The notes beneath the pieces were generated by a model that saw nothing but the letters and a program-made list of their open reading frames with translations, searched no databases and was not told where the DNA came from. A stretch of DNA of 53,979 bases, taken from the NCBI GenBank assembly GCA_020850945.1, contig JADZDR010000040.1:1-53979 (forward strand), written 5' to 3'. Each line of letters begins with the position of its first letter. Position 1 is the stretch's first letter. The DNA comes from Acidimicrobiia bacterium (GTDB lineage: Bacteria > Actinomycetota > Acidimicrobiia > UBA2766). Shown in pieces: positions 1,976 through 16,789 of the stretch. Both the position numbers and the translations under genes were made by a program.

Positions 1976-3538
1976 TCAGTTCTCGCCCGTCGCCGTGACA
2001 TCGAGGCCGAGGGCCTCACCCACGACCTTGGCGCCGAGATAGCCCGGTCCGCCGATGATCATGCCACCGGCATAGTTCGACGCTCCACACGTGAAGAGGC
2101 CCGGGATCGGGGTAGTGACCTCCGAGCACATGTCGTTGGGGCGATTGAAGCCCATCTGCAGGTTCGTGTAGGAGCCGTGCTTGATCGAGCCCCGCTTCAT
2201 GGTCTTGAGCTTCTCGGCGATGTGCGTGGGCGGGTACTCGCGGCGCAGCACGATGCGACCCAGATCGACATGGCGTTCGACGAGGCCGAGGCACTGGTCC
2301 CCGAACGCACGTGTGTTGTTGTCCAAGTCCTCGTCGAAGCGGACGACCTGTTCCACCCGCAGGATCTCGTGGCCGGGTGGCGCCATGGAGCGGTCGTGCC
2401 GGCTCGGGATCGTGACATGCACCCACTCGTCACCGCCTGCCGTGCCGGCATCGACACGCGCGAGGTGTGCGTGCAGGTCGTCCTCCGTCTCGGGACCGAG
2501 GAAGGCGATCATCGCCTCGTTCACACGCGGCTCGGGATGCCGGAACGTGGCGTCACCTTCGACGCCGAGGTGGAGGCCGAAGAGGGTGCGCTCCTCCCAC
2601 TCCCACGGCTCGACTGCCTGGCGCAGGTCGCGGGGCAGGTTGTCCGCCCCCACGAGCTGGAGGAACGTCTGCTCCGGGTTGAGAGTGGAAGCGATCGCGT
2701 CGGCGCGGAAGACGTGCCCGTCGGCGACCTCGACCGCCACGGCCCGGCCGGCGTCGAGGTGGATGCGGGTCACCTCGGATTCGTCGAGGATCTCGCCACC
2801 GTTGCTCGTGAAGACCCGGTACAGGGCGGACGAGAGCCGGTGCGACCCGCCCTTCACGAGGCCTGCCTGCGTCATGCGGCACAGGTAGATCGGGTAGAGG
2901 TAGCCGAGGGGGTCTTCGAGGTGGAAGCCCCACATGCCGGGGACCGAGAGCAGCGCCATGCGCACGCGGGGGTCGGTGAACCCGTACTCGTCGATGACCT
3001 CGATCGGGCTGTGCTCGGAGATCTCGTTGAGGCGCTCTCCGACCTCGGTCCGGCCGATATCGACGATCTGGTCGACGACGGGGAGCGGCAACCGGTACGT
3101 GAGGGGGATGATGTACTGCTCGAGCATCGGCTGGAACTCGATCCACATCTTGCGGAAGCACTCGGCGTCGTGCTCGCTCACGGTCGCGATCGACGCCACG
3201 GTCTCGTCGAGATCCTTCGTGAAGCACAGCGCCTTGCCGTCGTCGAACGGGAAGGCGCACGACACGCGGGGGTAGACGTAGCGGAGGCCGAAATCGGGCA
3301 GGGCGAGGTCACGATACGCGGGCATGACGTCGCTCATCATGTGGTAGATCGCGTGCAGGTTGAGGCGGAACCCGTAGTACTCGTCCGTGTTGAGTCCGCC
3401 GCCGGTCTCGTGGCGCCGCTCCACGAGGAGCACCTTGGCGCCGGCCTTGGCGAGGTACGCGCCGCACAGGAGGCCGTTCGGGCCACCGCCGACCACGATC
3501 GCGTCGTAGGTGTCCGTCTTCGTCACGGTCGCTGTCAT
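1976..3538 (-). CDS. Phytoene dehydrogenase-like FAD oxidoreductase (paralogue A)
   Basis: The 520-aa product belongs to the COG1233-type NAD(P)/FAD amine-oxidase-like superfamily. An N-terminal Rossmann dinucleotide site GGGPNG (17-22) sits in a VVGGGPNGLLCGAYLAKAG context. A C-terminal FAD-binding segment contains PIPGLFTCGAS and GGPGYLGAKVVGEALG. The start codon overlaps the stop of the upstream flavoprotein gene by 4 nt (ATGA), which implies translational coupling. It resembles the product of 7736-9391 most closely, sharing the IIGGPGY segment. Family members desaturate or isomerise polyenes or act on other hydrophobic substrates. No phytoene or GGPP synthase gene is in the window, so a carotenoid role is not supported. 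The substrate is unknown. Confidence 0.85.
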   Translation of the reverse strand: MTATVTKTDTYDAIVVGGGPNGLLCGAYLAKAGAKVLLVERRHETGGGLNTDEYYGFRLNLHAIYHMMSDVMPAYRDLALPDFGLRYVYPRVSCAFPFDDGKALCFTKDLDETVASIATVSEHDAECFRKMWIEFQPMLEQYIIPLTYRLPLPVVDQIVDIGRTEVGERLNEISEHSPIEVIDEYGFTDPRVRMALLSVPGMWGFHLEDPLGYLYPIYLCRMTQAGLVKGGSHRLSSALYRVFTSNGGEILDESEVTRIHLDAGRAVAVEVADGHVFRADAIASTLNPEQTFLQLVGADNLPRDLRQAVEPWEWEERTLFGLHLGVEGDATFRHPEPRVNEAMIAFLGPETEDDLHAHLARVDAGTAGGDEWVHVTIPSRHDRSMAPPGHEILRVEQVVRFDEDLDNNTRAFGDQCLGLVERHVDLGRIVLRREYPPTHIAEKLKTMKRGSIKHGSYTNLQMGFNRPNDMCSEVTTPIPGLFTCGASNYAGGMIIGGPGYLGAKVVGEALGLDVTATGEN

Positions 3539-5289
3539 GTGCCGCTGCCTCCGCTCGATTCGTCGGCGAGCCACTTCGGGCTCACACCGAGGTTCATGGG
3601 GACTTCGAGCATGTTCTGCATGAACCAGTCCCACGGCCGGTGCGTCCACCACGACTGGTCGCGGCAGCCCATGTCCTCGGCGACCTCGGACGCGGCCAGG
3701 TAGCCCGTGGCGAGCCAGGACGCACCCATCGGATGGATCGACTGCGACAGGTACAGGCCGGGCAGGAACGTCCGCGACGCCCCGCTCGTGATGACTCCTG
3801 GCACGGGCCGGTTCAGGTAGAACTGCTCGGGTGTCACGCTACCGCCCATGATGTTGCCCATGACCGAGGACGGGTTGTTGCGAACCTGGTCGAGAGGCGT
3901 CATCACGAACCGTTCGAGGATCAGGTCCTTGAAGCCGGGCGCGTACTCCTCGATCCGGTCCGTCACCGCGTCGGCGAAGGGCTCGGCCAGATCCGGCCAC
4001 GCGTCGATCCCACCCCGGATCGCCTCGCTGCCCCATCGCCTCGGGTTGGGCGGCACGTCTACCCAGAGGAACGCGGTGTGACATCCCGCCGGTGCCTGCG
4101 TCGGATCGGCGCGGGTCGGCACGAACCAGTTCCCCATGACCTCGTCGTCGATCACACCCGAGATGAGGTTCACGTTGTGACGGCGCATGTCGTCGAGGGT
4201 CTCACCGCCCAGGTATCCCATCATGCAGCGTTGGATGCCGGGATCCCAGCCACTCGTCGCGAACTCGACGTCGCCGCTCAGGCTGTAGTAGGCGCCGAAG
4301 AGGACCTGTTCGTCGTAGCGGAAGGTCTTGACGCGGCTGCGGATCGCCGTGCCGACGACATCCTCGTCGAGGAGGTGCAGGAACGTCGGGGCCGCCGACA
4401 CGTTCGAGACGATAGTCTTCGCGCGGATCTCCCCCCCCGGCAGGAGGGCATGCTCGGCAAGCCTGATCCCGCATGCCTTGCCGTCCTCGACGACGATCTT
4501 CTCGACGGGACAGGTGGTCCAGATCTCGCCTCCCGCCTGCACCGTCGCCTTCACGAGGGCGTGCGTGAGGGAATGGGAACCGCCGCGTGCGTTGTGCACG
4601 CCCATCGGCCCGCCGATGCCGGCCATGAACACGGCGGCGAGCGCGCCGATCTCGCGGTAGATCGGGGGAAGCCCGCTGATCCAGCCGCACGCCGCCGTCG
4701 TCGTCTTCACCTCGTCGGACTCGAAGAGGATGTCGAGGACCTCGAAGCCGGTCATGTTGAGGAGGTCGGCACCCGAGTAGGGGTGGCCCTGATGGGCGAG
4801 GAAGTCGTCGAGGAGCTTGAACATGCGATCGAGCGTCGCCTCGCTCGGCGGGCCGTACCAGAACCGGCGGTTGACCTCGAGCATCTCGTCGAGGTTCACG
4901 GCGTTGAACTCGAGAGCCTTGAGCTGTGTGGAGGCGTCCCGCTCGGAGATCCGCTGCCAGTTCGCCTGCGTCTTGGAGACGTCCATGGCATGCAGGAGGT
5001 TCTTCCCCGAGAGGAAGGGCTTGGAGTACGTGATGTCCGTGCCGCGCAGCTCGAAACCGAGGGACGGCAGGTCGAGGTCCTGCATCGCCGGTGAGTACCC
5101 CGTGGCGAGCCACGTGGCATGCATATTGTGCAGGAAGCCGGGGCGGCCGAGCTCGACCGTGTCGCAGTGGGCACCGCACTGGCCCCGGGCCTCGAACACG
5201 CCGACGGAGAGGCCCGCCTTCGCCAGGTACGCGGCGGCTGTGAGGCCGTTGATCCCGCCACCGATGACGATGACGTCGTAGTCCTTCAT
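3535..5289 (-). CDS. Phytoene dehydrogenase-like FAD oxidoreductase (paralogue B)
   Basis: The 584-aa flavoprotein has the N-terminal site VIGGGINGLTAAAYLAKAG starting at residue 7, followed by a Cys-containing segment (GQCGAHC) where paralogues have GG. The C-terminal FAD segment is PVPGVITSGAS. The C-terminus carries an aromatic tail (DQSWWTHRP) that is echoed as DQWWTQRP in the protein at 9391-11097, so the two form a subgroup. The start (MKDYDVIV) lies 22 nt after the stop of the preceding flavoprotein. Its own stop overlaps the next start by 4 nt. It probably acts in the cytoplasm or at the membrane on a lipophilic substrate. The family assignment is strong, the substrate unknown. Confidence 0.85.
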   Translation of the reverse strand: MKDYDVIVIGGGINGLTAAAYLAKAGLSVGVFEARGQCGAHCDTVELGRPGFLHNMHATWLATGYSPAMQDLDLPSLGFELRGTDITYSKPFLSGKNLLHAMDVSKTQANWQRISERDASTQLKALEFNAVNLDEMLEVNRRFWYGPPSEATLDRMFKLLDDFLAHQGHPYSGADLLNMTGFEVLDILFESDEVKTTTAACGWISGLPPIYREIGALAAVFMAGIGGPMGVHNARGGSHSLTHALVKATVQAGGEIWTTCPVEKIVVEDGKACGIRLAEHALLPGGEIRAKTIVSNVSAAPTFLHLLDEDVVGTAIRSRVKTFRYDEQVLFGAYYSLSGDVEFATSGWDPGIQRCMMGYLGGETLDDMRRHNVNLISGVIDDEVMGNWFVPTRADPTQAPAGCHTAFLWVDVPPNPRRWGSEAIRGGIDAWPDLAEPFADAVTDRIEEYAPGFKDLILERFVMTPLDQVRNNPSSVMGNIMGGSVTPEQFYLNRPVPGVITSGASRTFLPGLYLSQSIHPMGASWLATGYLAASEVAEDMGCRDQSWWTHRPWDWFMQNMLEVPMNLGVSPKWLADESSGGSGT

Positions 5290-5311: not shown

Positions 5312-6790
5312 TCAGGCCGGGGCGTGCGTGGCGAGGTCCTCGAGCACCATCTGGGCGACGGCCATGCCCGACTCGACCGCCTGGTGCGTGCCGCAGCCGA
5401 AGCCACCCGCATCCGTGCCGACGATGAACAGGCCGGGCAGCGGTGTGCGGGCATCGGGCTTCGTGAGGCCGCACTGCCCGATCACCTGGTTCAGGCCGAT
5501 GCACTCCCCGCCCTGGCCGGGCACGACCGCGTCGCGGGTCATGTTCGAGACGCTTGCCGCCGTGTAGACCTCGCGCTTCACGATGTGCTCGGGGATGCCG
5601 GGCCACATCTCGGCGATCGCGGCCTCGCCGCGGGCGATCACCTCGTCGTTGAGCTCGGACTTGGGGTCGGGCGAGCCGAGGAGGCCGACGAGGATGATCT
5701 GGTGTCCCTCCGGTGCCAGCGTCGGGTCGTACTCGGTCGTGACCGCAGCGAAGACCAGCGGCACGTCGGGCCACTCGCCACGCTGGACTGCCTCGTAGCG
5801 TTCCGTGTCCCACCAGCTCTCGTTCGAGAAGGCGACGATCATGCCCGTCTCGAGGACACGCTCGTCGAGGAAGTAGCGGACACCGACCATCCCCATGCCG
5901 GGCTCGAGGTTCTCGACGGTCTTCGCGTAGTCCGCGGGGACGTTCCCGGCCCCGACGAGCTTGAGGATCGTCGGCTGGATGCCGGCGTTGGAGACGACGA
6001 CGGGCGCCCGGAACTCGCCTGCGTCGGTTTCGATGCCGACGGCCCGGCCGTCCTCCACGATGACGCGCTCGACGCGTGTCTTGGTGAGGAACGTGCCGCC
6101 GTGCGCCTCGACGTAGGCGGCCGCCGCCTCTGCCGGCCGGCCGTACCCGCCGGCGTGGTACCTGCCACCGCCACCGAGGAAGAGCTGGCGCAGCGTGCGT
6201 ACACCCTCGGACACGGGGATGCGGTCGACCGGCGAGACGAACACGAGGTTGAGCATCGCCGACATGTACGCGATGACGGGGTCGGGCACGCCGAAGCTGC
6301 GCATCCAGCCGAGCATGCCGGTGTCGTCGAGGGCGTCGATCTCTTCCTCGGACAGCGTGAGAACCTGCCCCACGAGGGCGAGCATCTTCTCGACGTCCTC
6401 CTTGGACACCCCGAACGTGGACTCGAGGCGGTCGAGGGCGAGCGGGTCCTCGGCCTGCTTGGAGGGGCCGATGTAGCTGCGCCACTCGCCGTCGGCGCCG
6501 AGGTACTTCAGTTCGATCGCCTTGTCGCCCTCGGGCACGATGAGGGGTGCCTCGTCCTCGATGCCGAGCTCGGCCACGAGTGCGTGGAACTGAGAGTCGG
6601 CTGCGGGGAGACTGAGGACCGGCCACATCTCGTAGGCGTAACCGTTGCGGCGGATCGTCTGCGCCTTCCCGCCCGCCTGGTTCGTCTTCTCGACGAGGAG
6701 GACTCGCCTTCCCTCTTTCGCGCACAGGGCGGCGGTCGTCACGCCCCCGTAGCCTGCCCCGATCACGATCACGTCGTACTGCTCGCTCAC
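5312..6790 (-). CDS. Phytoene dehydrogenase-like FAD oxidoreductase (paralogue C)
   Basis: The 492-aa product starts MSEQYDVIV and has the dinucleotide site GAGYGG (11-16), followed by an acidic residue at the end of the second strand (LLVEK) and a GGKAQT segment typical of the CrtI/CrtISO group. The C-terminal segment PLPGLFIVGTD plus GCGTHQAVESG is the second FAD contact. Of the five paralogues it is nearest the usual CrtI length (about 490-510 aa). It is the second gene of the operon, 47 nt after the small Ala/Glu-tailed protein. It is likely expressed under the KstR-type operator upstream of that gene. The substrate is unknown. Confidence 0.85.
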   Translation of the reverse strand: MSEQYDVIVIGAGYGGVTTAALCAKEGRRVLLVEKTNQAGGKAQTIRRNGYAYEMWPVLSLPAADSQFHALVAELGIEDEAPLIVPEGDKAIELKYLGADGEWRSYIGPSKQAEDPLALDRLESTFGVSKEDVEKMLALVGQVLTLSEEEIDALDDTGMLGWMRSFGVPDPVIAYMSAMLNLVFVSPVDRIPVSEGVRTLRQLFLGGGGRYHAGGYGRPAEAAAAYVEAHGGTFLTKTRVERVIVEDGRAVGIETDAGEFRAPVVVSNAGIQPTILKLVGAGNVPADYAKTVENLEPGMGMVGVRYFLDERVLETGMIVAFSNESWWDTERYEAVQRGEWPDVPLVFAAVTTEYDPTLAPEGHQIILVGLLGSPDPKSELNDEVIARGEAAIAEMWPGIPEHIVKREVYTAASVSNMTRDAVVPGQGGECIGLNQVIGQCGLTKPDARTPLPGLFIVGTDAGGFGCGTHQAVESGMAVAQMVLEDLATHAPA

Positions 6791-6837: not shown

Positions 6838-7407
6838 TCAGACCGTCATCTCGACGTCGGCTGCTTCGTCTGCCCCGGCTGCGGCGGGTGCCGTCCCGTT
6901 GTTCGACTTCGGGCTGACCGGTGTCGTCTCGTCCGCGGCCCCCGTCTCTGCCTCGGCCGATGCGGAGGCCTCGGCCTCTGCTGCCTCTGCCTCGGCGGCC
7001 TCCGCCTTGGCGGCGCGTCGATCCTCGCGGCGCTGCCGGCGTTGTTCGCGCCGTGAGGGGGCTGCGCCCTCACCGTCCGCGTCGGCTGCCTTCCCCGCCT
7101 CCTTCTCGAGGAGCTCCTGGCGGGCTTCCTTGGCCGCGGCGATCTGCTCCTTGCGGTCCACGCTCCAGTGCGCGTTCTTGTTGCGCTTGAAGGCGGCCCG
7201 CAGGAGGAGGGCGAGGGTGGGCCGCTGCAGGGCGACACGTGTGACACCGGCGAGGTCGTCCTCGCACATGCGGATCGTGAAGTCCCAGTGGACCGGCTCG
7301 CGGATCGTGCCCACGATGACGATCTCGTCACCTTCGCGACGGACCGTGTACTCGCGGAAGTCCATGGTCAGCTCTTTGCGACCCAGACCCCGTGACTTGA
7401 GCTTCAC
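6838..7407 (-). CDS. Conserved small protein with Ala/Glu-rich charged tail
   Basis: The predicted 189-aa protein opens the flavoenzyme operon. Residues 1 to about 90 look like a compact domain (TIREPVHWDFTIR, then ALQRPTLALLLRAAFKRNKN). The remainder is a low-complexity Lys/Arg/Glu then Ala/Glu tail with repeated AEAAEAEA segments, probably disordered or helical. I chose the GTG at 7407 because GAGGGGG lies 5 nt upstream. An ATG at 7365 (MDFREY) is the alternative and has a weaker ribosome site. I do not recognise the family. Its first-gene position, next to the operator and before three flavoproteins, suggests an accessory or partner role for those enzymes, which is inference. Confidence 0.6.
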   Translation of the reverse strand: MKLKSRGLGRKELTMDFREYTVRREGDEIVIVGTIREPVHWDFTIRMCEDDLAGVTRVALQRPTLALLLRAAFKRNKNAHWSVDRKEQIAAAKEARQELLEKEAGKAADADGEGAAPSRREQRRQRREDRRAAKAEAAEAEAAEAEASASAEAETGAADETTPVSPKSNNGTAPAAAGADEAADVEMTV

Positions 7408-7735
7408 GACTGCCCCCTCGAACCGAGAAATAGAACGTGTTCTAATACTGCACTGTAGGGGATGGGCCTCTGGAACGCAAGATACGATCGCTCGGAAATC
7501 GAGGATCTCCGCCGCCCCGGGGCGCTGGATGCGCACGAGGGCTGTGAGGATTCTGCAACTACATGGCGGGTGAGATCCCCACAACCACCCAAGACATGGG
7601 CGCGCCGTCTCCCTACGACCCCACTAGTCGAGAAAGGACCTCTTCGTCCCTTTCAGGCGACCTGCCCCGTCCGGCACAGATCTCCGAAACCGGGACCTCG
7701 CCCACTCCTGAGCCGCATCCGATCGTGGAGATCTC
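7408..7735. other. Intergenic region between the two flavoenzyme blocks
   Basis: This 328-nt gap holds the promoter region of the operon that starts at 7407, including the KstR-type operator at 7431-7444, and part of a hairpin at the 3' end of the neighbouring gene (7724-7748). Frames that cross it have codon use and products (Arg/Pro/Ser-rich) typical of antisense shadows. I see no further gene or RNA in it. Confidence 0.6.
7431..7444 (-). promoter_or_regulatory. KstR-type 14-bp operator before the flavoenzyme operon
   Basis: TAGAACGTGTTCTA is a 6-bp-arm palindrome with a GT centre. It fits the TnnAACnnGTTnnA motif described for the TetR-family sterol regulator KstR in mycobacteria and rhodococci. 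It lies 23 nt upstream of the GTG start at 7407, where binding would block a promoter or early transcript. The match is exact; the identity of the regulator is inference because no KstR gene is in the window. Confidence 0.65.
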
Positions 7736-7748
7736 TCAGATCTCCACG
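7724..7748 (-). terminator. Hairpin overlapping the stop codon of the flavoprotein gene
   Basis: Arms CGTGGAGATC (7724-7733) and GATCTCCACG (7739-7748) flank a 5-nt loop, with the stop codon of the minus-strand flavoprotein gene at 7736-7738 inside the loop region. There is no U-tract after it. It may end the transcript from 11097 or stabilise its 3' end. Confidence 0.45.
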
Positions 7749-9391
7749 ACCTCGCCCAGGTACCGGTCCCGGTACTTGGCGATGTAGTCGGGCAGGGTCC
7801 ACCACTTGTCGACACCGGCGTCCTCGGCCACGACGTTCGCGGCGATGTAGCCGGGACCGCCGATGATGAGGCCACCCGGATACGTCGACGCCCCGCACAC
7901 GTAGAGGCCCTCGACGGGGGTGCGCGACGCGGAACAGTCCTCGTTCGGGCGGAACGTCCCCATCTGGAGCGGGTTGTAGTCGCCGTGCTTGATCGAACCG
8001 CGGCGCATGTTGGGGAGGCGCCGCTCGATGTCGACCGGTGTCTCCGTGTGCGTCTGGAGGACGTCGAGGTTCGGCGCGGCCCGCCGCCACTGGTCGAGGA
8101 TGAGACCCTCGATCTCGGCCGTGCGGGTCTCCCACCCTCCGCCGTCGAGGTCGTAGGGGGCGTGGATCTGGAGGAAGGCGACCTCGTGCCCCGGCACCTT
8201 GGAGAGGGTCGGGTCGTAGATCGTCTCACACGTGGCATGGCCGCCCACGTGATCACCGATGTGGCCCGAACGCACACCCGCCCAGTACGACAGGAGGGAC
8301 TCGGGGTCGTCGAAGCCGAGGACGGTCATGAACGCCTCGTTCACCCACGCGTCGTCGACCGCGTACTCCGGCCGGCCCGAGAGCACGGCATGCGTCGTGG
8401 CGAAGCTCCACTTCTCCCACTCCCAGCCCTGCACGCTGCGCGTGAGGTTCTGGTCGAGGTGCTCCTCGCCGACGAGGTCGAGGAAGGTCGAGTGCGGATC
8501 GAGGCTCGAGAGGACGATGCCGGCGTCGATCGTGCGGCCGTCCTCCATCTCGACTCCGGCCACGTGCCCGTCCTGCATGCGGATCGACGTCACCTCGGCC
8601 GTGTCGAGAACCGAGCCGCCGTTCTGCACGACCTCACGCGCGAGGGCGGCAGCGAGGCGGTGCGAGCCGCCGTAGCAGATCGCCTTGTTCATCGTGCGGT
8701 CCACGAGGAGCGGGATCATGAAGCCGAGACCGGTCTCCTCCGGGTCGAGACCCCACATGCACGTGACGTAGAGGAGGAGCGTCTGCACCTTCGGGTCCTC
8801 GAAGAGGTCCGTGATCACCTCGACCGGGCTGCGCTCGGTGATGTCGAGCAGGGACTTGCCGATGTCCGAGCTCTCCATCGCCTCGATGAGGTCGAGGGGC
8901 GCCACGGGCGGCAGGTATGTCGCGGGTGCGACGAGCTCCTCGACGATGCGCCGCCACGTCCGCATGACCTTGCCGAACGTGCGCGAGTCCTTCTCGGAGA
9001 ACTTGGCGATGGAGTCCTTCGTGTCCTCGAGCATGCGGCAAAGGAGAAGGGACGAACCGTCCGAGAACACACCTGCCGTCTGCGCGTTCGGCGACACGAA
9101 CATGAGGCCGTGCTTGTCGAGGCCGAGGTCCTTCAGCGGAGGCATGTAGTCGACCATCATGTGGTAGATGGCGTGGGGGTTCGAGTAGTGGCTCGGGAAG
9201 AGGATCTCCTCCGTCGCGAGGCCACCGCCGATCTCGTAGCGCCGCTCGAGGACGCACACCTTGAGGCCCGCCCGCGCGAGGTAGGCGGCGGCGATGAGCC
9301 CGTTCGGCCCGGCCCCGATGACGGCCGCGTCGAACGTGGCCTTGTCCGGCCACTCCGAGATGTAGGTCTCAGGTGGGCGATACTCGCTCAT
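7736..9391 (-). CDS. Phytoene dehydrogenase-like FAD oxidoreductase (paralogue D)
   Basis: The 551-aa product starts MSEYRPPETY, with the dinucleotide site VIGAGPNGLIAAAYLARAG about 25 residues in and an EIGGGLATEEILFPSHYSN continuation. The C-terminal FAD segment has PVEGLYVCGAS and GGLIIGGPGYIAANVV, very like paralogue A at 1976-3538, which suggests duplication. The start codon shares one base with the upstream stop (TGATG), so it is translationally coupled to paralogue E. It acts on an unknown, probably hydrophobic substrate. The two-gene block is separated from the downstream operon by 328 nt that contain a KstR-type operator. Confidence 0.85.
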   Translation of the reverse strand: MSEYRPPETYISEWPDKATFDAAVIGAGPNGLIAAAYLARAGLKVCVLERRYEIGGGLATEEILFPSHYSNPHAIYHMMVDYMPPLKDLGLDKHGLMFVSPNAQTAGVFSDGSSLLLCRMLEDTKDSIAKFSEKDSRTFGKVMRTWRRIVEELVAPATYLPPVAPLDLIEAMESSDIGKSLLDITERSPVEVITDLFEDPKVQTLLLYVTCMWGLDPEETGLGFMIPLLVDRTMNKAICYGGSHRLAAALAREVVQNGGSVLDTAEVTSIRMQDGHVAGVEMEDGRTIDAGIVLSSLDPHSTFLDLVGEEHLDQNLTRSVQGWEWEKWSFATTHAVLSGRPEYAVDDAWVNEAFMTVLGFDDPESLLSYWAGVRSGHIGDHVGGHATCETIYDPTLSKVPGHEVAFLQIHAPYDLDGGGWETRTAEIEGLILDQWRRAAPNLDVLQTHTETPVDIERRLPNMRRGSIKHGDYNPLQMGTFRPNEDCSASRTPVEGLYVCGASTYPGGLIIGGPGYIAANVVAEDAGVDKWWTLPDYIAKYRDRYLGEVVEI

Positions 9392-11097
9392 CAGTTGCCT
9401 CCCGTGGTCGCAGCGGACGTCTTCGTGTCGGAGATGTGCCAGGGCGACGGGTACCACCAGTCACCCGGCTCGACGAGCCCGTCGTCGATGAGGATGTGCA
9501 TGAGGTTGTAGGGCACGGCCATGAGGCAGAGCCCACCCGGGAACGACGTCTGGTGGCAGAGGTAGAGGCTGTCGACCGGCGTCCGGTAACGGGACAGCTC
9601 GGGCAGGGGTCGCTGCGTCCACCACTGGTCCTCGCAGTGGCGCGTGGCGTACCAGTTGCCGCCCACGAGGCCGGCGTTGCGGAACTCGGAGTCGAGCGGT
9701 GTGTTCACCCAGATGTCGACGATGTTGTCGTCGGTCATGTTCGGCGCGAGCGTGCGCATCATCTCGAGCATCTCGCGTGTGATCTGGTCCTTCTGCTTGT
9801 TGACGGCGTCGGGACCCTCGGCGTGGTACTCGGGGGGAGGCAGCTCGATGTATATCGGCGAGAGGACGTGATAGCCCTCCGGTGCCCGCGTGCTGTCGTA
9901 CGTCGTCGGCATCAGGATCGGCAGGGTCATCGACGCCGTCCCCGTCGGGGTCGCGTTGCGTGAGTACGCGTCGCGCATCTGGACCACGACGCTGTCCCAG
10001 TCGTCGCACGGGTAGAGCACGGAACCCGGGTAGCCGTGCGACTCGACCAGGTCCTGGACCTGGCCCACGTAGCGGGGCAGCTCGCGGCACGCGACGTGGA
10101 GGACGTAGAGGCTGCCTCCCTTCAGGCTGATGTCCTTGATCTTCTGGAGGAAGGAGGCGTCGACGTGACGTGGGCCGACGAGGCGCTGGAACGTCTGCTG
10201 CACGTCGACGGCCGAGACGACGGCCTTGTCGGCCCAGATCGTCTTACCGGCCTTGGACGCCTCGTCTGCGAGCACGACTCCCCGCGCCTTGCCGTCCTGG
10301 ATGATGATCTCCTCGACCGGGCAGTTCACGAGGACACGCGCGCCGTGGGCGATGGCACAGCGGGCGATTGCGTGGGCGTACGTGTGCATGCCGCCCTTGG
10401 GGGCGCCCGACCCGTACGAGGCGAGGAGGAAGGATCCCATCGCCTGCGCCGCCATGCCGTCCCAGGTGGGGGCGGCGCCCGAGTACCAGGCGCCGAGGCC
10501 CATCGTGGCCTTGAGGGCACCCGTCTCGAACATCTCGTCGCACACGTCGACGAGGGAGTTGTCGAAGAAGGTCGAGGGCAGGGCCCCGCCCGCCGCCTCG
10601 TTCCAGGTCTTCACCCACGGCAGGTCCTCCTGCTCGACGTCGAGCTCGAGGGGGTACGGCGGGGTCCAGAATGTGGAGCGCAGGATCTCCTTGAGGTGCG
10701 GGTAGATGAAGCCCATCATCCCGCCCCAGAGGTCGGCGTCCTTCTGCGAGAAGGCGCGCAGCGTCTCGGCCGCCTCGGCGAAGTTCCAGCGGTTGCCGCC
10801 CATGAAGGCGCGGTTGTCCGAGGTGACGGAGAGGCCGTACTGACCCCAGTAGGACATGCGGAACCCGTACTTGTGGAGCTCGAGCTGCTCGAAGCCGGGG
10901 GCGGCGCCACCGTAGAGAACGGACGCGTGCGGGTCGATGCGGAAGCCCGGCTTGGGCTCCGAGTTCTCCTGGGCGCCACCGATCTCGAGGCGTGACTCGA
11001 GAACGCAGACGCTGTAGCCGCTCTTGGAGAGGTAAGCGGCGAGCGTCATGCCGTTGTGGCCTCCACCGACGATTACGAAGTCGTATCGGCTGTCCAT
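9391..11097 (-). CDS. Phytoene dehydrogenase-like FAD oxidoreductase (paralogue E)
   Basis: The 568-aa product starts MDSRYDFVIVGGGHNG, with the Rossmann site close to the N-terminus and a GGAGGAGG ribosome site 5 nt upstream. A C-terminal DQWWTQRP segment precedes PVDSLYLC and SFPGGLCLMAVPYN, where the usual GxSxxxG FAD contact is altered (CHQTSFPGG). It groups with paralogue B by the tryptophan-rich tail. It is the first gene of a two-gene unit divergent from a TetR gene, and the shared promoter contains a long operator. Control by that TetR protein is likely. Confidence 0.85.
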   Translation of the reverse strand: MDSRYDFVIVGGGHNGMTLAAYLSKSGYSVCVLESRLEIGGAQENSEPKPGFRIDPHASVLYGGAAPGFEQLELHKYGFRMSYWGQYGLSVTSDNRAFMGGNRWNFAEAAETLRAFSQKDADLWGGMMGFIYPHLKEILRSTFWTPPYPLELDVEQEDLPWVKTWNEAAGGALPSTFFDNSLVDVCDEMFETGALKATMGLGAWYSGAAPTWDGMAAQAMGSFLLASYGSGAPKGGMHTYAHAIARCAIAHGARVLVNCPVEEIIIQDGKARGVVLADEASKAGKTIWADKAVVSAVDVQQTFQRLVGPRHVDASFLQKIKDISLKGGSLYVLHVACRELPRYVGQVQDLVESHGYPGSVLYPCDDWDSVVVQMRDAYSRNATPTGTASMTLPILMPTTYDSTRAPEGYHVLSPIYIELPPPEYHAEGPDAVNKQKDQITREMLEMMRTLAPNMTDDNIVDIWVNTPLDSEFRNAGLVGGNWYATRHCEDQWWTQRPLPELSRYRTPVDSLYLCHQTSFPGGLCLMAVPYNLMHILIDDGLVEPGDWWYPSPWHISDTKTSAATTGGN

Positions 11098-11160
11098 GTG
11101 CCTCCTCCTGCCGGGCGCCACCGCGGGCTCGGTCCCGGAACATCCTGGCATCCCTCGCTA

Positions 11161-11196
11161 GACGATGTAACATATCACGATAGTTGTTACATTGTC
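11161..11196. promoter_or_regulatory. TetR-type operator between flavoprotein and tetR genes
   Basis: Arms GACGATGTAAC (11161-11171) and GTTACATTGTC (11186-11196) match at 10 of 11 positions as an inverted repeat. A nested TATC-AC-GATA lies in the 14-nt centre. It sits in the divergent promoter, 28 nt before the TetR start and 63 nt before the flavoprotein start. This is the usual arrangement for autoregulation with control of the divergent gene. Confidence 0.75.
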
Positions 11197-11224
11197 ACGT
11201 CCGGATCGCGAGCGGAGGAGACGC

Positions 11225-11830
11225 GTGGCGGAAGCAGCGAGCACAGCGGCTCCTGACAAGGTGACCGACACGGAGGAGCGGATCCTCACCGCGGCCCGGA
11301 CCTGCTTCTCACGGTTCGGCCTGCGCAAGACGGCGATGGAGGACATCGCCCGCGAGGCCGACCTCTCGCGGGGAACGCTCTACCGCTACTTCCCCGACAA
11401 GGACGCCCTCCACCGTGCCGTGAGCGAGAGCGAGACACGCCGCTTCCTCGATGGCATCACGAGCGGCACGGCCCGCCTCCGCTCGTTCGAGGCGAAGATC
11501 GAGCACGTGGCACTCGCCGCCATGGAGTTCCTCAACGCCAATCCGCTCAACGCGGCGATGGCCTCCACGGATCCCGAGGCGTTCGCCGCCGCCATCACCA
11601 CCAGGGGACACGATCTGGTCGTCCTCTCGGTCGAGGCGATCGCCCCCATCGTCGAGGAGGCGATGCACACGGGCGAGCTGCGCTCGGGCCTCGACCCTGC
11701 GCGGGCAGCCGAGTGGATCGTGCGCATGGTCTTCTCGCTCATCTCGACACCCTCCGCCACTTTCGACCGCGACGACCCGCGTGAGATCCGCCGCTTCCTT
11801 CGTGACTTCCTCGTGCCGGGCCTCGGTTGA
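11225..11830 (+). CDS. TetR/AcrR family transcriptional regulator
   Basis: The 201-aa DNA-binding repressor has an N-terminal HTH (ILTAARTCFSRFGLRKTAMEDIAREADLS region, ending in GTLYRYFPDKDAL), the TetR signature. The C-terminal ligand-binding and dimer domain is unassigned. I chose the GTG at 11225 because GGAGGAG lies 5-7 nt upstream; a TTG 33 nt earlier falls inside the operator and is less likely. It is divergent from two flavoprotein genes, with a 36-bp inverted repeat between them that it probably binds. Its operator does not resemble the KstR-type sites at 7431 and 15587, so it is unlikely to be the KstR-like regulator. Confidence 0.9.
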   Translation: MAEAASTAAPDKVTDTEERILTAARTCFSRFGLRKTAMEDIAREADLSRGTLYRYFPDKDALHRAVSESETRRFLDGITSGTARLRSFEAKIEHVALAAMEFLNANPLNAAMASTDPEAFAAAITTRGHDLVVLSVEAIAPIVEEAMHTGELRSGLDPARAAEWIVRMVFSLISTPSATFDRDDPREIRRFLRDFLVPGLG

Positions 11831-11944
11831 CATGTGGGCAGCCTCGACACTCACCTTTGCGTGCTCACCCTGCCCAGGTTGGCCGAAACCCCGATGTGGG
11901 CTTGGATACCCCTCACGCGTGAGTGCTGAGACTGCCCACATGTC
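11829..11944. repeat. Long imperfect inverted repeat after tetR
   Basis: The left arm (11829-11863) and right arm (11914-11944) are imperfect reverse complements: GACATGTGGGCAG is followed by CTC and CACTCAC, with small mismatches and one 4-nt bulge. About 50 nt separate them, containing a further GCCCA/TGGGC pair. The left arm starts on the last bases of the tetR stop codon. It could be a terminator, a structured RNA or a MITE-like remnant. No second copy was noticed in the window. Confidence 0.6.
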
Positions 11945-12155
11945 TCCTGCTTGCATTCGAGTGCCCGCGGAGCCAAGACTTGGGCCTGTTCCGGAAGGCG
12001 TCGTGACCTCGAGGGGCTCCGGGTGGGACCGCAAACCGATACCTCCCCCCCGAAACAAGGGACCCTCCGACGCGACGTCCAATTATTCGCATATGGTGGG
12101 ATGCTGTCGGGGGGAAGCCGTTCCATGACACACAGGCGAACGCGAGGTGCGCCCG
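11831..12155. other. Intergenic region between tetR and the membrane protein gene
   Basis: This 325-nt gap contains the inverted repeat at 11829-11944. The last part (around 12079-12100) is AT-richer, with CCAATTATTC and a TATGGT that could be a -10 element for the next gene. No gene or recognisable RNA was seen. Confidence 0.5.
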
Positions 12156-13613
12156 ATGCCTAACGGAAGAGGTGGGTTCCTGCTCAAGGCAGCAGGGGCG
12201 ACGATGGCAGCAGCAGGAGCGATGGCCGCGTACCGGGCGGGACGCACCGAGTCGCGAATCGACGAGCGGATCAACCCGATCCTCGACGGCGACGTACCAC
12301 CCGGCAGCGACGTGGCACCGCCTCCCCCCGCCCCGCCCGCCGGTACCGAACCCGTGGGTGAGTTCGCAGCGCCCCCGGCCATGACCCCGCCCCCGGCCAT
12401 GTACCCGCCCCAGCCCCCTCACACTCCCAGTGAAAGTGCGGTCGTGATCTGGCCCGGCGGCGCCGAGCAGGCAGGGCCGCTCGTCCCCGTCATCGACGCG
12501 CCCGGCCTCCCCGTCCCCTACGACGGAGCCGCGGTCGCAGCATCGACCTACGCCCGCAGCCGCGGTGGCCGGCGGTACGCGCTCGGCGGAACCGTCCTCG
12601 GCTCCTGCCTCGGTCTCCTCACCGCTCTCGCTCTCGTCCTCGCCGGCATCGCCGCCGTCCAGCGGGACGAGAAGAAGGTGAACATGGAGACACAGGGCTC
12701 CTCGGCCTCCGGCGAAGGTGGCGGCACCACGGACTACAACACCTCCGGTGGGTCGACGAAGGGATCGAGCTCCGCAGGTACGGCCGGCTCGACGACGGGA
12801 ACGGGCGGTTCGACCGGCGGCCAGTCCTCGAACACCGGCTCCGGTGGAGGAGACGGTGGTGGCGCGGGTGGCGGCGGTGGCGGCGGGAGTGGTGGCGGCG
12901 GCTCCGGCGTCAAGCGCCCGCCCCAGGGCAAGTGGGCGGCAGCCGGCGAGGGCAGCGAGGCCTTCAGCGCCGGCAACGTGAGGAACTCGTGGTCGGATAT
13001 GACCTTCGAGGTCATCTACGACGGCGACTGCTGGATCGAGAAGATGACGATGCACTCGAAGCGCTGGGCGGAGCTCCTCTTCTGCCCGACGAACGACGGT
13101 GGCCTCGTCCTCTCACTCACGCGCACCTACAACATCATGCCCGTCCTCAGCCTCGGCGAGATCCACAACTTGGCGACGACGAAGTGCGAGCCGGTCCGGG
13201 TCTACATGTCCGGCAACATGGAGGCGGGCCAGCAACTCAACGCGGGCAGCTGCGTGAACACGAACGAGCAGTGCGGGAAGGGCTTCACCGGCTGCAAGGT
13301 GAGCCCTCTCATCCCCGACAGCTCGGTCGACCAGGCGACGGTCACGGTCATCGGCAAGGAGGTCGTGTCCGGCCAGGAGGCCTGGCACGTGCAGATGAAC
13401 CAGTCCATGGTCTCCCAGACGGGGAAGGTGCAGGGCTCCGTCATCACCGTCGACCCGCACAACCAGGAGCACTTCTGGTTCCGCACGACCGACGGCCTCC
13501 CCCTGCGCATGGACCGCGTGACGAACGCGAAGACGACCACGACGGTCGGGATCGTGTCGACGTTCAAGGAGACGGGCTCGATGTGGATCGCCGAACCGCC
13601 GCCCGTCAGCTGA
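12156..13613 (+). CDS. Single-pass membrane protein with Gly/Ser linker and exported C-terminal domain
   Basis: The 485-aa product has three parts: a Pro/Ala-rich N-terminus of about 130 residues, one hydrophobic helix near residues 145-170 (GGTVLGSCLGLLTALALVLA), and a long Gly/Ser/Thr linker with runs of glycine. A C-terminal domain of about 220 residues follows, with several cysteines and the segment FRTTDGLPLRMDRV, reminiscent of LolA/LppX-type lipid-binding folds. The topology is probably N-terminus inside and domain outside. The ATG at 12156 has GAGGTG 6 nt upstream. Its stop overlaps the stop of the convergent acyl-CoA dehydrogenase gene within TCAGCTGA. The function is unknown. Confidence 0.75.
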   Translation: MPNGRGGFLLKAAGATMAAAGAMAAYRAGRTESRIDERINPILDGDVPPGSDVAPPPPAPPAGTEPVGEFAAPPAMTPPPAMYPPQPPHTPSESAVVIWPGGAEQAGPLVPVIDAPGLPVPYDGAAVAASTYARSRGGRRYALGGTVLGSCLGLLTALALVLAGIAAVQRDEKKVNMETQGSSASGEGGGTTDYNTSGGSTKGSSSAGTAGSTTGTGGSTGGQSSNTGSGGGDGGGAGGGGGGGSGGGGSGVKRPPQGKWAAAGEGSEAFSAGNVRNSWSDMTFEVIYDGDCWIEKMTMHSKRWAELLFCPTNDGGLVLSLTRTYNIMPVLSLGEIHNLATTKCEPVRVYMSGNMEAGQQLNAGSCVNTNEQCGKGFTGCKVSPLIPDSSVDQATVTVIGKEVVSGQEAWHVQMNQSMVSQTGKVQGSVITVDPHNQEHFWFRTTDGLPLRMDRVTNAKTTTTVGIVSTFKETGSMWIAEPPPVS

Positions 13614-14787
13614 GATACACGTCGGCGAACGGGTCTGTGCGGCTGCGGTCTGCCTCGCGGGGCAGACCGAGGACACGTTCGGCCACGGCGTTGCGCTGAA
13701 CCTCGTCCGTTCCCCCACCCAGATGGATTCCGGGCGCGATGAGGAGGAGCCGCTGCCACGGGTTCTCGTCCGTGAGGGCAGGGGGACCGAGCACGGTGAG
13801 GGCGACGTCGGCCGCATCCGTGAAGACACGCGCCGCGCACAACTTCGCGATCGACCCCTCAGCCGTGGGAACCTGGCCCGCCCCGAGCTTCGAGATCACA
13901 CGGGCGTTCAGGAAGTCGAGACAGCGGTCACGCGAATAGACACGCATGATCCTGTCTCGCACGACCGGGTCGAGCGGAGTGGCCGCGCGCGCGAGGTCGA
14001 CGAGGTCGTCGCGCTGGAACACGCCGAGCGAGCCGCCCAGCGTCATGCGCTCGTGCATGATCGTCGTGACGGCGACGGGCCAGCCGCCGGCTGGGTCACC
14101 CACGCGGTCCGAGTCCGGGATGCGCACCTCGTCGAGGAAGACCTCGTTGAAGTGGGCCTCACCCGTGATCTGGCGGAGAGGACGCACCGTGACTCCGGGG
14201 CTCTGCATGTCGAGGAGGAAGAACGTGATGCCGCCGTGCTTGGGCAGCGTCGGGTCGGTGCGCGTGAGGAGGATGCCGCGCTGGGCGAAGTGGGCGCCGG
14301 ACGACCACACCTTCTGACCGGAAACGACCCACGAGTCCCCGTCGCGCACCGCCCGCGTGCGCACAGCGGCGAGGTCAGAGCCTGCGTCGGGCTCGCTGAA
14401 GAGCTGGCACCAGATCTCCTCGCCGTCGAGGATCCGCGGCAGGAATCGCTCGCGCTGCACGTCCGTGCCGTGGGCGATGATCGCGGGACCGGCCATGCCG
14501 ATGCCGACGATGTTGATGGACGCCGGGACTCCGAAGCGGCTGCACTCCTGGTTCCAGATGATCTGCTCGACGGGACCGCAGCCCCGACCTCCGTATTCGG
14601 CCGGCCATGTGATGGCCGCCCACCCGTGCTCGAACAGGATGTGCTGCCAGCGGGTGAGCGTGGCGACCATGGGCTCCCACTCGCCGTGGGACATGTCGAG
14701 GTGGCGCACGAACGACGCGTGCTCCTCGAGGAAGGCGACCGCCTCCTTGCGGAAGGCCGCCTCGGCGGGTGAGTCCTTCAGATCCAT
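13606..14787 (-). CDS. Acyl-CoA dehydrogenase family protein
   Basis: The 393-aa flavoenzyme performs alpha,beta-dehydrogenation of an acyl-CoA, passing electrons to ETF. Visible marks are WPAEYGGRG in the N-terminal helical domain, SEPDAGSDLA in the middle and the C-terminal GGGTDEVQRNAVAERVLGLP segment that contacts FAD. The length fits the family. GGGGGGGAC lies directly before the ATG. It is followed 24 nt upstream by an SDR gene carrying a KstR-type operator, so both are probably one transcript. EtfAB for electron transfer is encoded at 23.7-25.6 kb. The acyl substrate is unknown. Confidence 0.92.
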   Translation of the reverse strand: MDLKDSPAEAAFRKEAVAFLEEHASFVRHLDMSHGEWEPMVATLTRWQHILFEHGWAAITWPAEYGGRGCGPVEQIIWNQECSRFGVPASINIVGIGMAGPAIIAHGTDVQRERFLPRILDGEEIWCQLFSEPDAGSDLAAVRTRAVRDGDSWVVSGQKVWSSGAHFAQRGILLTRTDPTLPKHGGITFFLLDMQSPGVTVRPLRQITGEAHFNEVFLDEVRIPDSDRVGDPAGGWPVAVTTIMHERMTLGGSLGVFQRDDLVDLARAATPLDPVVRDRIMRVYSRDRCLDFLNARVISKLGAGQVPTAEGSIAKLCAARVFTDAADVALTVLGPPALTDENPWQRLLLIAPGIHLGGGTDEVQRNAVAERVLGLPREADRSRTDPFADVYLS

Positions 14788-14811
14788 GTCCCCCCCGTCA
14801 CGTCCGTCATG

Positions 14812-15567
14812 TCAGAGGGTCACGCCGCCGTCGACGACGAGTACGGCGCCCGTCATGTTCGGCATCGCGGGTGAGGAGAGGAAGTCGATCGCAGCCGCGA
14901 TCTCCTCGGCGTCGATGAGACGCCCGGTCGGGGGGATGATCCGCATGAGAAGGGACTCCTCGGCACCCTCGGGTGCGCTGAACTGGGCAGCGATGGGGGT
15001 GATGACACCGCTCGGGCAGATGGCGTTCACGCGCACGCCTCGCGGCGCGTACTCGAGGGCGAGCGTCTTGGTGAACATGACGACTCCGCCCTTGGACGCC
15101 CCGTAGGCGGCGGCGTAGGGATGGGCAGTGAGACCGGCGACGGAGGCGACGTTCACGATCGCACCGCCGACCTCCTCGAGGGCAGGCAGAGCCTCACGTG
15201 CCATGAGGAACGTGCCCGTGAGGTTCACGCCGAGGACCCGCGTCCAGTCCTCGACGGATTCCTCGGCCGTGTTGCTGAAGTGGCCGATCCCGGCGACGTT
15301 GGCGAGGACGTCGAGCCGCCCGAACTCGCCGAGGGCGGTCGAGACGGCGGACTTGGCGTCCACCTCGTCGCTCACGTCTCCGGCCAGCCAGCACGCTTCT
15401 CCGCCGGCGTCACGGATCGACGCGGCTGTGGCCTCGGCACCGGAGCCGTCGCGGTCGAAGCAACAGACAGAGGTGCCGCCGGCGCCGAAGTGCAGGGCCG
15501 TCACACGTCCGATACCGGACGCGGCACCGGTCACGAGGGCCGAACGTCGTCCGTTGGACTCACCCAC
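14812..15567 (-). CDS. Short-chain dehydrogenase/reductase (FabG-like)
   Basis: The 251-aa NAD(P)-dependent SDR has the cofactor motif TGAASGIG (13-20), NVAG (90-93), catalytic Ser142 and the YGASK pair Tyr155/Lys159. It ends with a TGAVLVVDGG cofactor loop. I chose the GTG at 15567 because GGGGAGG lies a few nt upstream and the longer frame adds unlikely sequence. It likely oxidises or reduces a hydroxyacyl-CoA or steroid-like alcohol in the same pathway as the adjacent acyl-CoA dehydrogenase. A KstR-type 14-mer lies 20 nt before the start. Confidence 0.9.
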   Translation of the reverse strand: MGESNGRRSALVTGAASGIGRVTALHFGAGGTSVCCFDRDGSGAEATAASIRDAGGEACWLAGDVSDEVDAKSAVSTALGEFGRLDVLANVAGIGHFSNTAEESVEDWTRVLGVNLTGTFLMAREALPALEEVGGAIVNVASVAGLTAHPYAAAYGASKGGVVMFTKTLALEYAPRGVRVNAICPSGVITPIAAQFSAPEGAEESLLMRIIPPTGRLIDAEEIAAAIDFLSSPAMPNMTGAVLVVDGGVTL

Positions 15568-15586
15568 GCGGCCTCCCCGGGAAGAT

Positions 15587-15600
15587 TGAAACGTGTTCCA
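15587..15600 (-). promoter_or_regulatory. KstR-type 14-bp operator before the SDR/acyl-CoA dehydrogenase unit
   Basis: TGAAACGTGTTCCA fits TnnAACnnGTTnnA and shares the central AACGTGTTC with the site at 7431-7444. It is 20 nt upstream of the SDR start, almost the same spacing as at the flavoenzyme operon (23 nt). The two sites are 8 kb apart and probably answer to the same TetR-family repressor. Confidence 0.6.
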
Positions 15601-15654
15601 TTTCGAGCACCAGAATATCCTCGCCGCCCTTTCGAGGAAAGTTAGGAGGTTTGC

Positions 15655-15684
15655 TACCAAGTGGTTAGTATTGCGAACCACTTG
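15655..15684. promoter_or_regulatory. Inverted repeat operator before the LLM oxidoreductase gene
   Basis: CAAGTGGTT (15658-15666) and AACCACTTG (15676-15684) are perfect inverted 9-mers with a 9-nt centre. The left part also reads TACCAAGTGGTTAGT (15655-15669), which fits the pattern YACCAnnTGGYTAGT found upstream of the SDR gene at 25.6 kb. It lies 35 nt before the LLM gene start. Confidence 0.55.
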
Positions 15685-15718: not shown

Positions 15719-16789
15719 ATGGGATTCCGTGTCCAGACCGTGATGCTGGGACCGGACACGGATCAGTACGCCGGCGAGGGCAGCTCCGCCCCGACCATCT
15801 CCGACATGGCGGCAGCGGCGGCCCACGCCGAGCGTCTCGGGTTCGACGCCGTGACCGCCCCCGAAGCCGGACACGACCCCTTCCTTCCCCTCGCCATCGC
15901 CGCCGAGCACACGGACCGAATCCGCCTCGGCACGAACGTCGCGATCGCGTTCCCGCGCAGCCCCCTCGTGACCGCACAGATCGCGTGGGACCTCCAGCAC
16001 ATGTCGGGAGGCCGCTTCGAGCTCGGCCTCGGCACGCAGGTGCGCAGCCATGTGGAACGGCGCTACGCGGCCGCATGGGCTGGGCCACCCGGCCCACGCC
16101 TGCGCGAGTACGTCCTCTGCCTCAAGGCGATGTTCGCCACGTTCCAGGAGGGGTCGAAGCCGGCCTTCGAGGGTGAGCACTATCGCTTCAACCTCATGAA
16201 CCCCTTCTTCAACCCGGGGCCGATCGAACATCCGCATGTCCCGATCCACGTCGCGGCCGTGAATCCCTACATGGCGCGCCTCGCCGGAGAGCACTGCGAC
16301 GGGTTGCGCCTCCACCCCATCGCCACCTTCGACTTCACACGCGAGGTCGTCCTTCCCGCCGTCGCCGCCGGTGCGACCGCGGCGGGCCGCGACCCGGAGG
16401 AGATCGAGATCATCGGCGCTCCCTTCCTCGCCGTCGCGGACGAGGCCGGCCTCGCCGGTGCCAAGGACAAGCTGAGGCAGCACATCGCCTTCTACGCGTC
16501 GACCCCCACGTACCACTCCGTGCTCGAGTTCCACGGCTGGGGCGAGGTCGCCGCCGAGCTCCACGCCATGTCCCGCGAAGGGCGCTGGAAGGAGATGCTG
16601 TCCTGCATCGACGACTCCATGCTCGACGCATGGGCGGTCGTCGCCACGAGGGACGGTCTCGTGAGCGAGATCGAGACGCGCTGCACGGGTCTCTTCGACA
16701 CCGTCCTCCTCGACCTCGCGCCCGCCCTGCGCAAGGACGACGACTGGGTCGCCGAGACGGTGTCGGCACTGCAACGCGGCGGACGCTGA
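15719..16789 (+). CDS. LLM class (F420-type) oxidoreductase
   Basis: The 356-aa product has the luciferase-like TIM-barrel pattern. An N-terminal VQTVMLG strand is followed by a helix with AERLGFDAV, then IRLGTNVAIAFPRSPL, and HMSGGRFELGLGTQV as a nucleotide/F420-contacting region. It most resembles the TIGR03617 group of F420-dependent oxidoreductases common in actinobacteria. The start MGFRVQT has AGGAG 8 nt upstream. It is divergent from the SDR/acyl-CoA dehydrogenase unit and followed 28 nt later by an enoyl-CoA hydratase. It is probably a cytoplasmic redox or monooxygenase step; the substrate is unknown. Confidence 0.88.
   Translation: MGFRVQTVMLGPDTDQYAGEGSSAPTISDMAAAAAHAERLGFDAVTAPEAGHDPFLPLAIAAEHTDRIRLGTNVAIAFPRSPLVTAQIAWDLQHMSGGRFELGLGTQVRSHVERRYAAAWAGPPGPRLREYVLCLKAMFATFQEGSKPAFEGEHYRFNLMNPFFNPGPIEHPHVPIHVAAVNPYMARLAGEHCDGLRLHPIATFDFTREVVLPAVAAGATAAGRDPEEIEIIGAPFLAVADEAGLAGAKDKLRQHIAFYASTPTYHSVLEFHGWGEVAAELHAMSREGRWKEMLSCIDDSMLDAWAVVATRDGLVSEIETRCTGLFDTVLLDLAPALRKDDDWVAETVSALQRGGR

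Follow-up and report, generated by a model that had tools for sequence, protein, structure and literature searches.

Two probable KstR operators at flavoenzyme and acyl-CoA dehydrogenase units of an Acidimicrobiia genome

The closest described system to the one considered here is the KstR regulon of Mycobacterium tuberculosis and M. smegmatis, in which a 14-bp operator precedes the targets and kstR itself is autoregulated (Kendall et al., 2007, PMC1995591). The sites printed there adjoin, in particular, Rv1894c, Rv3503c/Rv3504, Rv3515c/Rv3516, Rv3520c/Rv3521 and Rv3573c/Rv3574. In Nocardioides simplex, KstR and its operators occur outside Mycobacterium and Rhodococcus and control sterol side-chain genes (PMC7593942), and KstR has been dated to an ancestor shared by Mycobacterium and Rhodococcus (PMC3388012). 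Here we describe two sites of the same 14-bp type in an Acidimicrobiia bacterium (assembly GCA_020850945.1), on contig JADZDR010000040.1, whose whole stretch of 53,979 nucleotides constitutes the window. With a probability that we roughly put at 0.78, both sites would serve as operators for a TetR repressor of the KstR type whose gene is located elsewhere in the genome; one lies within a unit of CrtO-like flavoenzymes and the other before a short-chain dehydrogenase/reductase (SDR) and acyl-CoA dehydrogenase pair.

As the initial annotation had claimed, the motifs at 7431-7444 (site 1, TAGAACGTGTTCTA, minus strand) and 15587-15600 (site 2, TGAAACGTGTTCCA, minus strand) are exact matches to TNNAACNNGTTNNA. 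They are far above chance: the pattern is matched nowhere else in the window, and shuffled versions gave a mean of 0.05 matches and never two. Scoring was based on a matrix built from 47 M. smegmatis and M. tuberculosis KstR sites (PMC1995591, Table 3), which is independent of this genome and supersedes an earlier matrix trained partly on it. Site 1 reaches 26.4 bits and site 2 21.8 bits, the best other 14-mer of the window having 9.2 bits, and scores this high are expected 0.003 and 0.17 times per whole genome, respectively. Site 1 is a perfect palindrome save for its central GT and is identical, letter for letter, to the core of the operator given for M. tuberculosis kstR in the site data of PMC1995591.

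Both sites precede GTG starts of minus-strand genes, at 7407 and 15567. The gap of 23 nt first reported for site 1 is correct, but that of site 2 is 19 nt rather than 20. The GTG at 7407 is backed by homology, the orthologue in a genome of the same family (G003) having an ATG at the aligned codon (MKLKSRG...). Upstream of site 1, a putative promoter, TTGCGT-N17-TACAGT (7452-7480, minus strand), can be recognized; the site begins 7 nt past its -10 box, i.e., across the expected transcription start. A weaker putative promoter, TTTCCT-N17-TATTCT, lies upstream of site 2 (15612-15640, minus strand), and a third one, TTGCAT-N17-CATAAT, precedes a flavoenzyme pair on contig C82, all three being assigned by resemblance to the consensus only. 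In these three cases the operator falls just after the putative -10 box, and at the core KstR targets no such pair of -35/-10-like boxes was recognized by the same reading.

The KstR-type TetR protein on which such a regulon would depend is indeed encoded, at C4:64790-65332. It matches the KstR model NF033703 with 153.5 bits over positions 3-184 of 185, the next of the 37 TetR-type matches in the genome having 43.5 bits, and its best PDB match is M. tuberculosis KstR (5CW8 and others, E 5.7e-31). It shares with the latter 33 of the 55 residues of the DNA-binding domain and 17 of the 21 around the recognition helix. A tree was computed with this protein, M. tuberculosis KstR, the KstR-like proteins found in relatives and about 30 further TetR proteins from the genome; the C4 protein falls in the KstR clade (support 94/94), while the TetR of the window (11225-11830) and the other sampled TetRs of the genome lie outside. 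Moreover, the autoregulation motif TnnAACnnGTTnnA is found upstream of this kstR gene as GAGAACCTGTTCTA, with one mismatch at the first base; the same first-base mismatch occurs upstream of kstR in a genome of the same genus (G001), as GAGAACGTGTTCTA, and none in G003, as TAGAACACGTTTCA. Downstream of kstR, both in this genome and in G001, a cytochrome P450 is encoded whose closest solved structures are CYP125-type.

Throughout the genome (3.9 Mb in 97 contigs, the window being contig C40; completeness 98.5%), TNNAACNNGTTNNA is matched at 26 places, compared with 5 for the reversed-pattern control (Poisson P about 3e-11). Sites were located by pattern search and scored afterwards, so that any fitting neither TNNAACNNGTTNNA nor AGAACNNGTTNNA may have escaped detection. 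The ten top matches by the published-site matrix are all intergenic and near gene starts, and those ranked lower are mostly intragenic, with the site of kstR itself (18.0 bits) ranking among a few intragenic ones. In total, 15 of the 26 matches are intragenic, mostly of the TCGAAC type, and were dismissed as chance, whereas nearly all the intergenic copies lie close before the starts of beta-oxidation-type genes. A similar picture emerges from 40 relatives of the class, in which genomes encoding a KstR-like protein that scores more than 100 bits were taken as KstR genomes: TAGAACNNGTTNNA outnumbers its control in the ten KstR genomes (110 versus 42 matches) and is depleted relative to it in the other 30 (67 versus 161), although individual KstR genomes vary, G006 and G039 showing no excess. 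The motif is thus not at chance frequency, its enrichment among the relatives being confined to genomes where a KstR-like protein is present.

A concentration of matches before beta-oxidation and ring-cleavage genes had also been anticipated. This holds for beta-oxidation and sterol side-chain genes, but no ring-cleavage target was identified in this genome. On contig C35, an operator precedes an acyl-CoA dehydrogenase pair, with an AhpC-type gene in the divergent direction; the first member of the pair has chain A of 4X28 as its closest match (442 bits), while for the second the closest are 6WY8 (264 bits) and chain D of 4X28 (212 bits). A cluster with operators on contig C41 encodes an enoyl-CoA hydratase, a nitronate monooxygenase and a FadD19-like ligase (PRK07798, 675 bits), and includes an operon of two DUF35 proteins together with Ltp4-like (PRK07937, 509 bits) and Ltp3-like (PRK08313, 643 bits) thiolase-family proteins. 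Further operators precede a CrtO-like flavoenzyme (C34), an aldehyde dehydrogenase gene divergent from that of a malate dehydrogenase (C47), and the flavoenzyme pair on C82, where there are two tandem sites, the second one weak. Contigs C72 and C82 begin with inverted copies of nearly the same sequence (C72:1-200 and C82:1-140; L074, L075), the mark of an assembly break or a repeat. The copies have one KstR site in common, so that the two matches listed there probably reflect a single physical site or a repeat.

The orthologous-looking targets in common with the mycobacterial regulon are CYP125, the FadE26/27-type pair (ChsE4/ChsE5), FadD19, Ltp3, Ltp4 with DUF35, and an Rv1894c-type monooxygenase. 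The names ChsE4/ChsE5, FadD19, Ltp3 and Ltp4 are presumptive, as we assigned them from profile or PDB matches and from the mycobacterial loci rather than from a tree. Most of the regulon looks orthologous to the side-chain regulon of mycobacterial KstR. Furthermore, G003, which belongs to another genus of the family, keeps operators at kstR, at the dehydrogenase pair, at the monooxygenase and at the DUF35-Ltp4-Ltp3-FadD19 operon, the proteins being about 49-84% identical.

Several observations weigh against this interpretation. The KstR relative remains far under the equivalog cut-off of NF033703 (153.5 versus 280 bits), and site 2, taken alone, has the expectation of 0.17 per genome given above. 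In G003, where the eight-gene flavoenzyme unit is complete and in the same order (64-84% identity, and 57% for the divergent TetR), the gap matching that of site 1 measures about 40 bp, versus 328 bp here, and holds no operator; in turn, the SDR/dehydrogenase unit lacks an operator in both G003 and G001. Since the sites are absent from the orthologous loci that were checked, conservation gives no support to sites 1 and 2 individually. As for ring degradation, KshA was not detected in this genome. Searches for KstD at E 1e-60 were negative here and in every other genome of the family, and those for HsaC-type dioxygenases at E 1e-20 were negative here and in all KstR genomes, these absences being bounded by the thresholds and by genome completeness (98.5%); in this genome, then, no ring-degradation gene (kshA, kstD, hsaC) was found under KstR. 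A KshA copy is present in G001, and in G003 a strong KstR operator (C198:14526; L128:5527) lies 23 nt before a KshA-type oxygenase gene, no HsaC-type dioxygenase having been found there. As this genome yielded none of KshA, KstD and HsaC, the genes of classical ring cleavage, it is a sterol side-chain or acyl-CoA-type signal that is supported, and complete sterol degradation is not implied.

How would these observations fit other explanations? If the sites were KstR-like by sequence but bound by another TetR protein, e.g., that encoded at 11225-11830, they would be unrelated to a sterol regulon. The 37 TetR matches of the genome, one of them beside the flavoenzyme unit, and the general knowledge that similar palindromes are bound by many TetR proteins make this conceivable. 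Nevertheless, the local TetR belongs outside the KstR clade, and its own divergent promoter has a different dyad, to which related ones exist in two other genomes, whereas kstR itself and KstR-type targets are preceded by the 14-bp motif, which has been retained there in different genera; we regard such an assignment as very improbable. A genuine KstR operator at site 1 accompanied by a chance match near a start at site 2 is also unlikely. In its favour, site 2 is missing from both orthologous loci examined, combines two half-sites that are not of the commonest type and is expected 0.17 times per genome, and a dyad at 15658-15684 looks like the main operator at that promoter. However, the half-sites TGAAAC and TGGAAC recur among the published sites (PMC1995591), site 2 stands only 19 nt before a start, and by our own estimate the chance of a score this high also falling in a promoter is about 0.01.

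With both sites as KstR operators, a KstR dimer would bind the 14-bp palindrome close to the promoter and block initiation, and an acyl-CoA-type intermediate, formed when the side chains of sterols or sterol-like compounds are broken down, would release it; binding, dimerization, repression and ligand are here inferred from mycobacterial KstR. Site 1 is internal to the eight-gene unit and could only control its last six genes, from 6838 down to 101, for which it would create an internal KstR-controlled transcription unit. The entire unit would probably be controlled first by the neighbouring TetR, acting on the dyad at 11161-11196. Site 2 would add KstR control to the SDR/acyl-CoA dehydrogenase pair, and the dyad at 15658-15684 suggests a second regulator for the promoter region shared with a divergent F420-type oxidoreductase gene. 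The initial annotation had placed the flavoenzymes as a whole in a sterol- or acyl-CoA-responsive regulon. This agrees with the units that follow the sites, but because site 1 sits inside the eight-gene unit, the first two flavoenzymes (7736-9391 and 9391-11097) are outside its control.

At the level of the lineage, the window operators may be regarded as lineage-specific additions to an older conserved regulon core. Gain here would be a simpler explanation than loss elsewhere, because G003 lacks the sites at all three loci, those of site 1, site 2 and the C82 pair. The operator of the C82 pair is also present in the metagenome-assembled genome ATB1 (L187), where the protein is 87% identical and the promoter spacing is the same, and it is lacking in the G003 orthologue of the pair, which is 88-94% identical; KstR control of flavoenzyme loci therefore appears variable between lineages. 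Dyads at the orthologous loci of relatives suggest local regulators.

The genes following site 1, all on the minus strand, begin with a conserved 189-aa protein (6838-7407) that has a G003 orthologue and no Pfam or NCBIfam match. This small protein (L190-L193 in the comparison) accompanies flavoenzyme or repeat-protein genes in four genomes. It is followed by a flavoenzyme of the amine-oxidase/phytoene-desaturase superfamily (5312-6790; Pfam Amino_oxidase, 82 bits, with CrtI-type NCBIfam matches all under cut-off), by two CrtO-like flavoenzymes (3535-5289 and 1976-3538, with 152 and 159 bits to NF045689, whose cut-off is 1000), and by a 313-aa protein of the same operon (997-1938), defined by translation and synteny, whose sequence resembles that of a putative repeat protein (BNR/propeller-like). 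The last gene (101-979) encodes a crotonase near MenB/BadI (PRK07396 228 bits, badI 217 bits, all under cut-off), the nearest structures being MenB-type. Upstream of site 1, profile matches identify a subunit-B-like CrtO-like flavoenzyme (7736-9391, minus strand) and, together with synteny, a subunit-A-like one (9391-11097, minus strand), which is the first gene of the unit.

Between this unit and the divergent gene of the local TetR (11225-11830, plus strand; about 30 bits to NF033703), which is not KstR, lies a 36-bp dyad, GACGATGTAACATATCACGATAGTTGTTACATTGTC (11161-11196), a putative operator of that TetR, to which dyads of G003 and ATB1 are related. In the tree, the paralogue closest to this TetR is that of C74:2988-3623 (L018); each of the two is encoded divergently beside a flavoenzyme unit, a placement that suggests a duplicated regulator-plus-flavoenzyme module. 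After site 2, on the minus strand, come the SDR oxidoreductase (14812-15567; adh_short_C2, 197 bits) and the acyl-CoA dehydrogenase (13606-14787), for which Tcur3483 (6WY8) and chain A of 4X28 are the top matches among solved structures. A 27-bp dyad with perfect 9-bp arms, CAAGTGGTTAGTATTGCGAACCACTTG (15658-15684), which has a counterpart in G001 and may be the operator of a further regulator, separates the SDR gene from that of a divergent F420-dependent LLM oxidoreductase (15719-16789, plus strand; TIGR03617 393 bits, cut-off 278). For the 463-aa open frame at 12222-13613 (plus strand), the NCBIfam scan at E 1e-20 was negative, and when slightly extended the frame matched neither Pfam nor NCBIfam; no Rfam family was found in the window.

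The closest profiles of the flavoenzymes are those of carotenoid oxidoreductases of the CrtO/CrtI type (NF045689, TIGR02734), from which they differ in staying far below the cut-offs (1000 and 238 bits, respectively) and in forming multicopy two-gene modules, some beside TetR, SDR or acyl-CoA genes; five of the six scanned score 152-185 bits with NF045689. From these sub-cut-off scores and the two-gene modules, a carotenoid role is not implied. The reading of these enzymes as carotenoid-biosynthetic was set aside, none of the models being matched at its cut-off. Members of the flavoenzyme family number 11 here, 10 in G001, 9 in G003 and 3 in G008. At E 1e-50 the remaining 36 genomes gave none, and the expansion is at this threshold restricted to G008 and three genomes of this taxonomic family. 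Its expansion loci comprise 7736-11097 of the window and contigs C45, C74, C82 and C37 of this genome, along with L166-L185 in G001, G003 and G008; a pair of subunit-A-like and subunit-B-like genes recurs at several of them, some beside SDR, acyl-CoA or TetR genes. Three separate CrtO-like loci have KstR operators (C34, C40 and C82), and the chance of three targeted units holding this family is about 1e-5, a rough figure since transcription-unit numbers were guessed. The operators at three separate loci suggest that CrtO-like enzymes were recruited in this lineage to work on sterol-derived compounds. We know of no CrtO-like flavoenzyme targets in the mycobacterial KstR regulon.

Compared with the mycobacterial system, with which it shares the operator and the autoregulated kstR, this genome belongs to a different class, encodes a KstR of only distant similarity and yielded no KshA, KstD or HsaC, and CrtO-like flavoenzyme loci have been added to its regulon. 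Nocardioides simplex, for its part, has kstD and kshA under KstR (PMC7593942), neither of which was detected here, and the Acidimicrobiia lineage appears to be without KstD and HsaC, as well as KshA in this genome. In the literature searched, no paper joining KstR with Acidimicrobiia was found. The genome speaks for an older origin of KstR, or for its transfer. As a tentative and rather doubtful proposal, the regulon core would predate the split of Mycobacterium and Rhodococcus or have crossed classes, and KstR would have recruited duplicated two-gene CrtO-like flavoenzymes oxidizing sterol rings or side chains.

The genome extends the KstR circuit, core targets included, to a second class of Actinobacteria. 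Its membership shifts, in that a conserved core coexists with operators at flavoenzyme loci that are present in one lineage and absent in relatives. A large uncharacterized flavoenzyme family would become tied to a regulator of known signal, which offers a testable guess at its substrates.

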